This document shows positions 2,810 to 56,572 of a stretch of 64,000 bases of DNA, piece by piece. Location: contig JAUIGE010000014.1 of assembly GCA_030430205.1 (NCBI GenBank), positions 1 through 64,000 of the forward strand. The letters run 5' to 3'. The translations under genes were made by a program, and so were the position numbers. This DNA comes from Bacteroidia bacterium (GTDB lineage: Bacteria > Bacteroidota > Bacteroidia > J057). Under the pieces are notes generated by a model that did not search any database, had not been told where the DNA came from, and saw only the letters and a program-made list of their open reading frames with translations. The number at the start of each line of letters is the position of its first letter. Position 1 is the stretch's first letter.

Positions 2810-2810
2810 T

Positions 2811-2892
2811 TTTGGGTTTCGAGTTTCGGGTTTCGGGTTTTGGGTTTTGGGTTTCGGGTTTCGGGTTTTGGGTTTCGAGTTTTGGGTTTTAG
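2811..2892. repeat. Degenerate heptamer repeat, GGGTTTC family
   Basis: About eleven 7-nt units of the form GGGTTTC/GAGTTTC/GGGTTTT run without a break between the HMA gene and the 3' end of rpoN. The last units overlap the rpoN stop codon. The same unit family recurs near 9.55, 18.65, 24.66, 26.52, 27.41 and 54.52 kb. Confidence 0.9.
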
Positions 2893-8470: not shown

Positions 8471-8941
8471 TCACTCTTCGAGGACCTTAATCGGTCTGAC
8501 AATACTCTCCTCCAGAGAGATAAAAGTCTCTGTGCGTTGGATATTGGAAATGGGCTGCACCTTATCATTCAGGATATGGCGCAGCTCTTTTGTATTGCGG
8601 CAGATGATTTTGAGGAAAACGCTGTAACGTCCCGTGGTATAGTGAATCTCCGTGATTTCGGGGATAGCGACCAGTTCGTCCACGATCTCCTTATAAAAAG
8701 AGCCTTTTTCTAAAAATACCCCTACAAAGGCGCAGATATCATATCCCAATTCAGAAGGGTCTATCTCCAAATGAGATCCCTTCACGACCCCCATGTCCTT
8801 GAGTTTCTTCATGCGAACATGCACGGTACCGCCGGAAACGATGAGTTTTTTGGCGATTTCAGTGAATGGCTGCTGCGCATCCTGCATCAGCATGGAAAGT
8901 ATCTGCAAATCCAGTTTGTCAATATTCGAATCTGAAGCCAT
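8471..8941 (-). CDS. Lrp/AsnC family transcriptional regulator
   Basis: DNA-binding regulator of the leucine-responsive family: an N-terminal winged helix-turn-helix (LDLQILSMLMQDAQQPFTEI then GTVHVRMKKLKDMGVV) and a C-terminal RAM/AsnC effector domain (GYDICAFVGVF, TGRYSVFLKI). Such proteins usually sense amino acids. The frame is open to an ATG at 8974, but the family-typical start is MASDSNIDKLDLQIL at 8941, giving 156 residues. The upstream 250 bp are very AT-rich and probably carry its autoregulated promoter. The effector and targets cannot be read from the sequence. Confidence 0.9.
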   Translation of the reverse strand: MASDSNIDKLDLQILSMLMQDAQQPFTEIAKKLIVSGGTVHVRMKKLKDMGVVKGSHLEIDPSELGYDICAFVGVFLEKGSFYKEIVDELVAIPEITEIHYTTGRYSVFLKIICRNTKELRHILNDKVQPISNIQRTETFISLEESIVRPIKVLEE

Positions 8942-9126
8942 TTTATAAATAGGTTTTTTCAATATTTTCAACAAAGATGTGTCTTTTTTTCAATAATTAT
9001 AAAAATAAAAAAAATCATTGAATTATTTTGAAAATAAGTATACATCCTTTTTATTTGTAATAACAAAAGCGGGAAAAACTTACAAAATTTCTAATCTTTT
9101 GAGCGTTCTTTTACAAATTTGATTAA
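8942..9126. other. AT-rich spacer upstream of Lrp gene
   Basis: Very AT-rich, with runs of A and T; expected promoter region of the minus-strand Lrp gene. I see no gene in it. Confidence 0.4.
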
Positions 9127-9205
9127 ATCAGAGGCGAGAGCCGAGATAGGAGAAACGAGACAAAATTGATCTCGCCTCCCGCTTCTCGAATCTCGAATCT
9201 CAACA

Positions 9206-9319
9206 CTGTAGGATGATGAAACAGGCAGCCATGCCCTCCGGTCTCGGGGGTGAGGGTTTGGGACAAAGTCGCCTCGGCGATCTAACCACCTCGTGAAGGT
9301 TCGAATCCTTCTCCTACAG
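9206..9319 (+). ncRNA. tRNA-like RNA, copy 1
   Basis: An 8-bp outer stem (CTGTAGGA, 9206-9213, with TCCTACAG, 9312-9319) encloses a perfect T-arm (GAAGG-TTCGAAT-CCTTC, 9295-9311), a D-arm-like segment and a long variable region with stem TCGC-CTCG-GCGA (9269-9280). At about 114 nt it is longer than normal class II tRNAs. The anticodon-like loop lacks the invariant U33, and no CCA is encoded (CGA follows). It is therefore tRNA-like rather than an assignable tRNA. It could also be a decayed tRNA gene or a Y-RNA-like molecule. Confidence 0.6.
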
Positions 9320-9402
9320 CGAAATCAGAGGCGAGAGCCGAGAGCCGAGAAACGAGACCAGATGGATCTCGCTTCCCGCCTCCCGCTTCCCGCTTCTCAA
9401 TA

Positions 9403-9517
9403 CTGTAGGATGATGAAACTGGCAGCCATGCCCTCTGGTCTCGGGGGTGAGGAATTTGGGATAAAGCCGCTCAGGCGGTCTAACCACTTCGTGAAGGTTC
9501 GAATCCTTCTCCTACAG
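9403..9517 (+). ncRNA. tRNA-like RNA, copy 2
   Basis: Second copy, 197 bp downstream. The outer stem and T-arm (9493-9509) are identical to copy 1. The variable-arm stem has changed from TCGC/GCGA to CCGC/GCGG (9467-9478), a T-A to C-G swap that keeps pairing and argues that the structure is maintained. The central stem CCCTC/GGGGG with a 7-nt loop sits where an anticodon arm would be, but position 33 is G and no standard anticodon can be named. Confidence 0.6.
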
Positions 9518-9685
9518 CGAAATCAGAGGCGAGAGCCGAGATACGAGACAAGATGAAACCCGAAACTCGAAACCCGAAACTCGAAACCCGAAACCCTCCC
9601 CCCTCCCGATCGAACAAGAAAGCATCAAAACGTGAAAATGTGAATTGCAGGAATGAGTGAAAACTGGTTCCTGTATTTTTTTTAT

Positions 9686-18640: not shown

Positions 18641-21852
<3,212 letters not shown>

Positions 21853-24655: not shown

Positions 24656-24688
24656 TACCCGAAACTCGAAACTCGAAACTCGAAACTA
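24656..24688. repeat. Short heptamer repeat, CGAAACT family
   Basis: About five CGAAACT units between the FMO and acyl-CoA dehydrogenase genes. An upstream ATG at 24646 would translate through this array, which is why the later ATG at 24703 is preferred for the next gene. Confidence 0.85.
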
Positions 24689-26517: not shown

Positions 26518-26600
26518 GTTTTGGGTTCCGAGTTTCGGGTTCCGGGTTTCGGGTTCCGGGAAGTGGTACTCGAAACCCAAAACTCAAAACTCGAAACGTT
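26518..26600. repeat. Degenerate heptamer repeat, inverted halves
   Basis: GGGTTCC/GAGTTTC-type units followed, after a short centre, by CTCGAAA/CCCAAAA-type units. The array could fold into a long imperfect hairpin between two genes of the same run. Confidence 0.9.
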
Positions 26601-27408: not shown

Positions 27409-27440
27409 ACCCGAAACCCGAAACCCGAAACCCAAAACTT
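27409..27440. repeat. Short heptamer repeat, ACCCGAA family
   Basis: Four to five ACCCGAA units directly upstream of the FadH-like gene. Confidence 0.85.
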
Positions 27441-40007: not shown

Positions 40008-40168
40008 AATATTGAAAAAACATAAATTTTAAAACTTAACATAATTTAGTCCGCAAGAGCCAATGGGCTGACCACCCAAGTGACAAGAAAAAAGGGAGAC
40101 CAACGACCCTTTCAAAAACGGGGCGACACGGAAAAGCCATCTGTGTAGGGCATTAAAAATAAATTACA
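40008..40168. other. Spacer after the array, nothing assigned
   Basis: About 160 bp, AT-rich at first, then a purine-rich stretch (GGGAGACCAACGACC...). No attC arm or gene is recognised. It should carry the promoter of the following lipoprotein gene. Confidence 0.35.
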
Positions 40169-54514: not shown

Positions 54515-54612
54515 CGAGTTTTGAGTTTCGGGTTTTGAGTTTCGGGTTTTGAGTTTCGGGTTTCGGGTTTTTCTCTGGAACGCGAAACCCAGAACTTGGA
54601 ACCCGAAACTTT
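54515..54612. repeat. Degenerate heptamer repeat, inverted halves
   Basis: GAGTTTC/GGGTTTT-type 7-nt units followed by CGAAACC/CCCGAAA-type units. The array fills the divergent spacer between the AhpD-like gene and pgk and overlaps the likely pgk promoter. Confidence 0.9.
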
Positions 54613-56479: not shown

Positions 56480-56572
56480 CTTCGTCCTTCGTCTCGCCTC
56501 CCACCTCTCTGCTCCCGCCTCTCTCCTCTCTCCTCTCTGCTCTCTGCTCTCTCCTCTCTCCTCTCTCCCCCC
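56480..56572. repeat. Heptamer repeat, CTCTCTC family
   Basis: CTCTCTC/CTCTCTG units of exactly 7 nt, with CCCACCT variants on the left, fill the 94 bp between the CotH and VTC-domain genes. A different sequence from the GGGTTTC arrays but the same period. Confidence 0.85.

Follow-up and report, generated by a model that had tools for sequence, protein, structure and literature searches.

The window, the whole 64,000-nucleotide stretch of Bacteroidia DNA analysed here, contains a tRNA-like RNA in two tandem copies on the plus strand, divergent from a gene for an AsnC-like regulator of the Lrp/AsnC family (8471-8974, minus strand; open reading frame and Pfam). Located by sequence, covariance model (CM) and alignment, positions 1-74 of copy 1 span 9207-9320 (C-1 at 9206, G73 at 9319, C74 at 9320) and those of copy 2 span 9404-9518 (C-1 at 9403, G73 at 9517), which with C-1 gives extents of 9206-9320 and 9403-9518. 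The outer stem and intact T-arm named in the original prediction are present in both copies, and the reported double change from T-A to C-G in the variable-arm hairpin (TCGC/GCGA versus CCGC/GCGG) does separate them. Copy 1 carries the anticodon-type loop CGGTCTC at 9239-9245 (triplet GUC at 9241-9243, C38 at 9245) on a stem at 9234-9238/9246-9250 that is supported by covariation; in copy 2 sequence and covariation place the loop, TGGTCTC, at 9436-9442, with GUC at 9438-9440. As had been noted, U33 is missing from these loops, both of which have G33, and CCA is not encoded, G73 and C74 being followed by GAA. Both variable arms are of a short form, that of copy 1 (44 nt, 9251-9294) consisting of a GAGG/CCTC stem, a GACAAA/CTAA internal loop and a distal hairpin, and that of copy 2 measuring 45 nt (9448-9492; sequence and CM).

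The two copies lie in a 197-bp tandem unit (9125-9548, 2.1 copies) that also includes a heptamer array 5′ of copy 1 (9127-9203, plus strand) and another between the copies (9324-9398, plus strand), both probably incidental. Short heptamer tracts of the CGAAACC / GAGTTTC and related types also occur elsewhere in the window (2810-2889, 9555-9596, 18674-18706, 24660-24687, 26518-26560, 27409-27438, 54515-54570 and 56492-56568), and a DUF805 RNA motif (Rfam RF03081, 59.9 bits) was found at 40088-40155 on the plus strand. At the two window copies ARAGORN reported no tRNA and Rfam gave no match at gathering thresholds, and their single-sequence folds are not unusually stable (z of -1.62 and -0.86 against shuffles). 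BLAST against the window's own genome returned just these two full copies, the four other matches being fragments of 17-25 nt.

Comparison with related genomes showed that the window RNA is not a product of chance, since close copies exist in relatives and the covariation lies far above shuffled and slid controls. Two alignments were used: A4, whose 93 distinct rows (including one tRNA-Leu) come from loci selected by pattern, and A6, whose 82 distinct rows were found by similarity or by the model. Both were fitted to the model, and such fitting leans towards the model's structure. Standard pairs make up 94.4% of the pair cells in A4 (covariation 0.325, against 0.151 shuffled and 0.09-0.11 slid) and 93.8% in A6 (0.389, against 0.174 shuffled and 0.06-0.14 slid). 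The fold is a cloverleaf with a 7-bp acceptor, a 5-bp anticodon stem, a 7-nt loop, G18G19, a T-loop of TTCRA and a 5-bp T-stem (all five pairs formed in 100% of A6 cells), the exceptions being one lineage with a T.T mismatch in the anticodon stem and one with a bulged T-stem. Changes on both sides of the D-stem and the anticodon stem were seen in several lineages, the D-stem occurring as AUG/CAU, ACG/CGU, GUG/CAC and UUG/CAA. An alternative hairpin proposed by RNAalifold, GGCA-GMCA-TGCC in place of the D-arm, was rejected because it is broken in loci L020 and L085, whereas the D-stem covaries. Seven base pairs of the 8-bp outer stem first described stood up to this comparison; the eighth, -1:73, pairs in 75 of the 82 A6 rows and is A-G in the other seven, so the conserved acceptor is the ordinary 7 bp.

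BLAST identified close copies in the own genome and in nine of the 12 other genomes of the same taxonomic family; the three genomes without a copy all belong to one genus, G003 giving no match and G004 and G005 matching through tRNA-Tyr genes. A covariance model built from 16 copies (R1) placed the RNA in 66 of 395 genomes of the class (E ≤ 1e-14) and in 39 of 395 genomes of a phylum sample (E ≤ 1e-13), including another class (f116), so that across these two overlapping samples it is widespread but patchy in Bacteroidota, with one to four copies per genome that carries it. A pattern scan of named genomes returned at least 120 stretches, and the 80 listed all have Bacteroidota names, among them Chitinophaga, Dyadobacter, Cyclobacterium, Fulvivirga, Flammeovirga, Emticicia, Thermonema, Neolewinella and Portibacter. 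The original prediction had suggested a search for further genome copies and would have been weakened by copies in which mutations break the pairing; the copies found keep their pairing across families, so on this sequence side of its test the RNA passes. Complete bacterial members score 74-131 bits with R1 and a divergent member in genome G077 scores 54, the best ordinary tRNA of the own genome being tRNA-Leu(GAG) at 63 bits. Across the sampled loci ARAGORN and Rfam RF00005 at curated thresholds do not recognise the RNA, with two ARAGORN exceptions, the L015 copy called as tRNA-Pro and the minimal G077 member called as tRNA-Asp(atc). Raw identity to tRNA isotypes was uninformative, and an RNA copy mis-called tRNA-Pro contaminated the comparison. 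A plasmid search with one Dyadobacter copy as query gave no match, and a literature search covering open-licence papers found no description of this RNA. The tRNA-shaped RNA family of Bacteroidota and phage contigs is thus real, conserved and undescribed in the literature searched.

Most of the variation lies in the variable arm, whose length ranges from 38 to 126 nt and which is composed of a base stem, a GAYAAA/CTAA internal loop and a distal helix. Four pairs hold at the base of the arm, a putative fifth being unpaired in 78 of 89 A4 sequences; the distal hairpin is paired in about 82% of cells, in a region where the alignment is poor. A second domain with GGRUUGACCAC or a close variant, set in a junction with optional hairpins, is present in 37/86 (A4) and 24/82 (A6) distinct complete copies and absent from the short form and from the minimal G077 form. 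Short and long isoforms stand together in tandem at 11 of 155 tabulated loci, representing about nine distinct places. The G077 member (L303, 1338-1415, minus strand) has a short variable loop and an AUC triplet, with a terminator-like hairpin immediately after it; in G203 and G377, of the same genus, the triplet is CUC. A second subtype, with the acceptor CTGCAGGA, is found at three loci away from asnC (L020, L084, L085), where the 3′ trailer CGCGAGTAGTAGTAGTC is conserved in the flanks seen. At L095, L097, L104, L142, L160, L161 and others, in Cyclobacterium, Lunatibacter and Belliella, some 45 nt directly 3′ of the RNA (GGTTATTTTGGGTTTATTGTTAATTGACTAAAGCTATG) are nearly invariant, and no asnC homologue was present in the examined stretches of these loci. 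Dyadobacter and relatives (L102, L101, L124, L092, L277) have a bulged T-stem nucleotide, GGGTGG-TTCGAAT-CCCCC, which might hinder EF-Tu.

The family also extends to IMG/VR contigs, which are predicted viruses: 36 viral contigs carry a copy, all confirmed by R1 at 68-101 bits, one of them cut off. Fourteen of these 36 loci carry ordinary tRNAs as well, seven of the 14 also with tmRNA, and no asnC homologue was detected at E ≤ 1e-5 in the examined stretches of the 36. Among the 28 distinct phage copies (L305-L340, L341), all 28 have the long arm with GACCAC and the GUC.C loop, and all 27 complete ones keep U1:A72, G2:C71, G73 and C74; because the loop and some of the anticodon stem had been written into the search pattern, independent evidence here comes only from the features of the acceptor and the arm. 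Against GenBank phages, one of four BLAST queries matched, in one record, an unannotated 636-kb uncultured phage with one copy among tRNAs; this copy has the loop CTGTCTC and the anticodon stem UCUCC/GGAGA instead of CCCUC/GGGGG. Two of four ORFs from one phage locus matched PHROGs, the best hits being a 2OG-Fe(II) oxygenase and a dCMP deaminase.

Signals of transcription were sought around the bacterial copies. The consensus of the Bacteroidota -7 box is TAnnTTTG. Upstream regions were taken from those 134 of 168 distinct copies that had 160 nt upstream with no other copy there, and 112 of them contain this box (shuffled mean 21, maximum 30), preceded 17-23 nt earlier by TTG in 75 (shuffled 3, maximum 9). 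A terminator-like hairpin under a loose rule follows the RNA in 111 of 148 cases (shuffled mean 55). In the window, a candidate Bacteroidota-type promoter, TTG-N19-TTTATTTG, lies at 9028-9057 on the plus strand, its -7 box imperfect and its assignment supported by the family-wide enrichment of TAnnTTTG; no terminator was found on the plus strand of the window. The RNA is therefore predicted to be an autonomous gene, most copies having promoter-like and terminator-like signals of their own. C74 is encoded after the discriminator, as in the ordinary tRNAs of the own genome.

The divergent neighbour recurs with the RNA. The best PDB match of the window protein is E. coli AsnC (2cg4, E=3e-38), and among seven NCBIfam families AsnC ranks first at 175 bits, followed by LrpA at 73 and Lrp at 47; the score of 175 falls below the cut-off of 227 for the AsnC equivalog NF008384, and the regulator is accordingly named AsnC-like. 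A leucine-responsive (Lrp) reading, suggested by the tRNA-Leu-like core together with an Lrp/AsnC neighbour, was rejected since PDB and NCBIfam rank AsnC far above Lrp. An asnC-like orthologue lies divergently within 2 kb of the RNA in 54 of 76 RNA-bearing genomes and 16 of 20 families, at a nearest gap of 89-303 (median 155). In the remaining genomes the asnC-like gene is on another contig in 21, sometimes at contig ends, and was not found in one; in families f69 and f9 (12 genomes) the RNA copies and asnC sit on separate contigs. Among the 80 named loci listed, 33 have an asnC homologue within the examined stretch, divergent in 33/33, and the asnC-like gene forms the commonest recurring neighbour cluster (31/80; next clusters at most 11). 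The AsnRS gene of the own genome shares the RNA's contig (G000:C80:69126-70538), about 5 kb past the end of the window. In E. coli, asnC and asnA are divergent genes. AsnC activates asnA, and asparagine reduces this activation, according to a passage of PMC8707732.

The nucleotides conserved in the RNA suggest an aspartate acceptor. All 82 A6 sequences have U1:A72, G2:C71, U35, C36 and C74; C38 and G73 are found in 81 and G34 in 79. The RNA had been described as having no canonical anticodon, but positions 34-36 read GUC in those same 79 distinct model-retrieved sequences; the three exceptions are CUC (twice) and UUC (once), and the divergent G077 member has AUC, so that all triplets seen end in UC and fall in the box shared by the two acidic amino acids. 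The commonest loops of the family are TTGTCTC (27/82) and CTGTCTC (14/82), that of the own-genome tRNA-Asp being CTGTCAC. A passage of PMC9976931 gives the aspartate determinants as G73, G34, U35, C36 and C38, the five counted above, with the second pair minor. Elsewhere the same source treats G1-C72 and G2-C71 alike as crucial, describes a role of G1-C72 in placing the 3′ end within E. coli AspRS, and lists G10 as a further determinant in a table. Of these latter features G1-C72 is absent from all 82, and G10 is present in 22. U1-A72 is the signal for amidation of Asp-tRNA as stated in parts of PMC9976931 and PMC4206432, and the RNA also lacks the U20a that a GatCAB substrate should not have, the A4 D-loop reading C/T/A and then A after GG, under an inferred position numbering. 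The features of an elongator tRNA, U33 and a purine at 37, are less dependable: U33 occurs in 58/82, and position 37 is U in 68, C in eight and G in six (its only purines) and never A, the window copies having G33 and T37. The RNA therefore keeps most of the positions read by AspRS and GatCAB and not the requirements of the ribosome. An ordinary tRNA-Asp(GUC) is present in the genome, as are tRNAs for 18 other amino acids at the loci scanned, tRNA-Ile not being among them.

A relation to GatCAB, scored by gatB alone, was examined in 80 genomes, 45 with the RNA and 35 without, in which gatB exceeded the cut-off in 45 and 15, respectively. The RNA-free labels rest on model search. A permissive re-scan of 37 RNA-free genomes (35 of them in the set) recovered a full copy in G243 and the divergent copy in G077, both genomes having gatB, and these were reclassified; the odd-length matches in these two were inspected closely and ARAGORN was run on five loci, and the other re-scan matches were taken as ordinary tRNAs from length and score. 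After reclassification gatB is present in 47/47 genomes with the RNA and 13/33 without. Among genomes with GlnRS the figures are 30/30 and 1/21 (Fisher's exact test 2.7e-13, a value that treats relatives as independent and is uncorrected for phylogeny), the one exception (G031) having a weaker gatB match of 363 bits and no RNA found; AsnRS is present in all 30. Where decoding tRNAs need no GatCAB, its presence thus follows the RNA. Genomes lacking GlnRS (gatB in 17/17 with the RNA and 12/12 without) are uninformative either way, and these 12 of the 33 RNA-free genomes indicate that GatCAB does not require the RNA. The contrast recurs within families f1, f22, f42 and f47, where RNA-free members also lack gatB; f6 and f9 are uninformative, gatB being present throughout and their RNA-free members lacking GlnRS.

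Asparagine synthetases were surveyed in the same genomes. AsnB-family matches over the cut-off do not differ between genomes with the RNA (42/47) and without it (30/33), and although the family is broad, the RNA cannot be called the only asparagine route. AsnB of the E. coli type, sorted by ORF length and match range, occurs in at least 12 genomes, all RNA-free among the matches listed. In the own genome GlnRS, AsnRS and gatB are all present, and no AsnB-family match exceeds the cut-off. Bacteroidetes appear in a passage of PMC4206432 among genera with AsnRS, GlnRS and GatCAB and without asparagine synthetase, for which synthesis on tRNA-Asn is supposed.

Comparison with known tRNAs places the RNA between several types. 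It resembles the type II tRNA-Leu of its own genome in having a D-stem of 3 bp, a D-loop with GG.AG that is usually 11 nt in length, a long variable arm and two unpaired bases between this arm and the T-stem, and shares CTCGTGAAGGTTCGA with tRNA-Leu(GAG), the best-scoring canonical tRNA; it differs in having G73 rather than A73, the GUC triplet, no A37, U1:A72 and an arm of 38-126 nt. With tRNA-Asp it has G34, U35, C36, C38, G73 and G2:C71 in common, and departs from it in its type II core, U1:A72 instead of G1:C72, mostly absent G10, unreliable U33 and lack of A37. The earlier view that it is neither a normal tRNA nor tRNA-Sec is upheld by the silence of ARAGORN and Rfam and by the loop and D-stem: tRNA-Sec has a UCA anticodon, a 6-bp D-stem and an 8-bp acceptor, and here the loop is GUC, the D-stem 3 bp and -1:73 not reliably paired. 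Allo-tRNAs have an 8/4 or 9/3 branch, with a 4- or 3-bp T-stem and a longer acceptor, which the five T-stem pairs of this RNA do not match. The allo-tRNAs and other non-canonical tRNAs treated in part of PMC7609411 are similar in tRNA fold, large variable arm and odd anticodon loop; the present RNA differs from allo-tRNAs in its 7/5 branch, a loop unsuited to decoding and a second conserved arm domain.

The RNA is probably a non-decoding acceptor in asparagine metabolism. In the specific form that we favour, with confidence only a little above even, it would be a tRNA that receives aspartate, undergoes amidation by GatCAB and, under AsnC-like control, helps to supply or sense asparagine. From the observed fold, conservation, linkage and co-occurrence we infer maturation, charging, amidation, AsnC control and asparagine release. 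The RNA would be matured and CCA-tailed; AspRS would load aspartate onto it through G34, U35, C36, C38, G73 and G2:C71; and GatCAB would convert Asp-RNA to Asn-RNA by means of the retained U1:A72. Position 37, the unreliable U33 and the bulky variable arm would exclude it from the ribosome, so that its Asp or Asn would not enter proteins. It would then supply or report asparagine under an AsnC-like regulator, where E. coli AsnC controls asnA, and release of free asparagine from Asn-RNA needs a deacylation step. Tandem use of AspRS and GatCAB, with the U1:A72 signal, is that of tRNA-dependent asparagine synthesis, and gatB accompanies the RNA in every RNA-bearing genome tested. The known route charges a decoding tRNA-Asn with a non-discriminating AspRS, as set out in part of PMC4206432, whereas here a distinct RNA, its loop of the Asp type, would take the acceptor's role. 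The locus likewise recalls E. coli asnC-asnA (PMC8707732, in part), with an AsnC-type regulator beside an element predicted for asparagine supply, the difference being an RNA gene in place of the asparagine synthetase gene. Against aspartate charging, G1:C72 is absent and G10 mostly so, and AspRS might not accommodate so long a variable arm.

An alternative in which the RNA is never charged and instead serves as a tRNA-derived regulator, its tRNA shape and GGRUUGACCAC domain binding AspRS, GatCAB or a different protein as a scaffold or decoy in asparagine control, with AsnC controlling its transcription, is unlikely but has several observations in its favour, namely the elaborate conserved second domain, the tandem short and long isoforms, the divergent AsnC-like gene and the gatB association. 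A pure decoy would need neither the invariant C74 nor an intact acceptor end with G73, and the short and minimal forms lack the extra domain. The identity and amidation evidence applies equally to a tRNA-like carrier that delivers Asp or Asn to an acceptor outside the ribosome (the cell envelope, a lipid or a peptide) instead of towards free asparagine, and dedicated non-proteogenic tRNAs are known elsewhere; this we regard as rather improbable, the asnC-like gene as commonest neighbour counting against it weakly, given that a partner need not be adjacent. That the RNA decodes, as a type II isoacceptor for the Asp codons GAC/GAU, perhaps redundant or producing stress-specific missense, would fit the GUC triplet, its position among tRNAs on phage contigs and U33, the frequency of which would still allow most members to decode. 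We nevertheless hold this to be distinctly improbable in view of G33 in both window copies, the lack of A37, the ordinary tRNA-Asp(GUC) already in the genome and the T.T mismatch of one lineage and bulged T-stem of others; moreover, with U1:A72 present, GatCAB could produce Asn on a tRNA that bears an Asp anticodon. Lastly, the idea of a tRNA-derived repeat, selfish or decaying, that travelled with the heptamer arrays, as first suggested by the tandem duplication and arrays in the window, is scarcely credible given compensatory changes across families, the low copy number at a mostly conserved address beside the divergent asnC-like gene, and the finding that just 8 of the 80 named loci listed (of at least 120 stretches) have a tract of period 7, 14, 21 or 28 no more than 300 nt from a copy. 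The arrays seem to be a local, incidental feature, even if the duplication in the own genome took in both them and the RNA.

Taken together, these data raise a broader proposal that is quite possible, if short of probable, namely that Bacteroidota and their phages employ a dedicated non-decoding tRNA as an asparagine-forming acceptor, served by ordinary AspRS and GatCAB and placed, like asnA, under AsnC-like control. If this is true, asparagine could be made on an RNA with no need for a non-discriminating AspRS and with no mistranslation, and there would be a reason why many Bacteroidota keep GatCAB despite having GlnRS and AsnRS, a situation discussed in part of PMC4206432. The tRNA-shaped gene family, which is carried on phage contigs together with tRNAs and tmRNA, would then be one kept for its acceptor chemistry and not for decoding.
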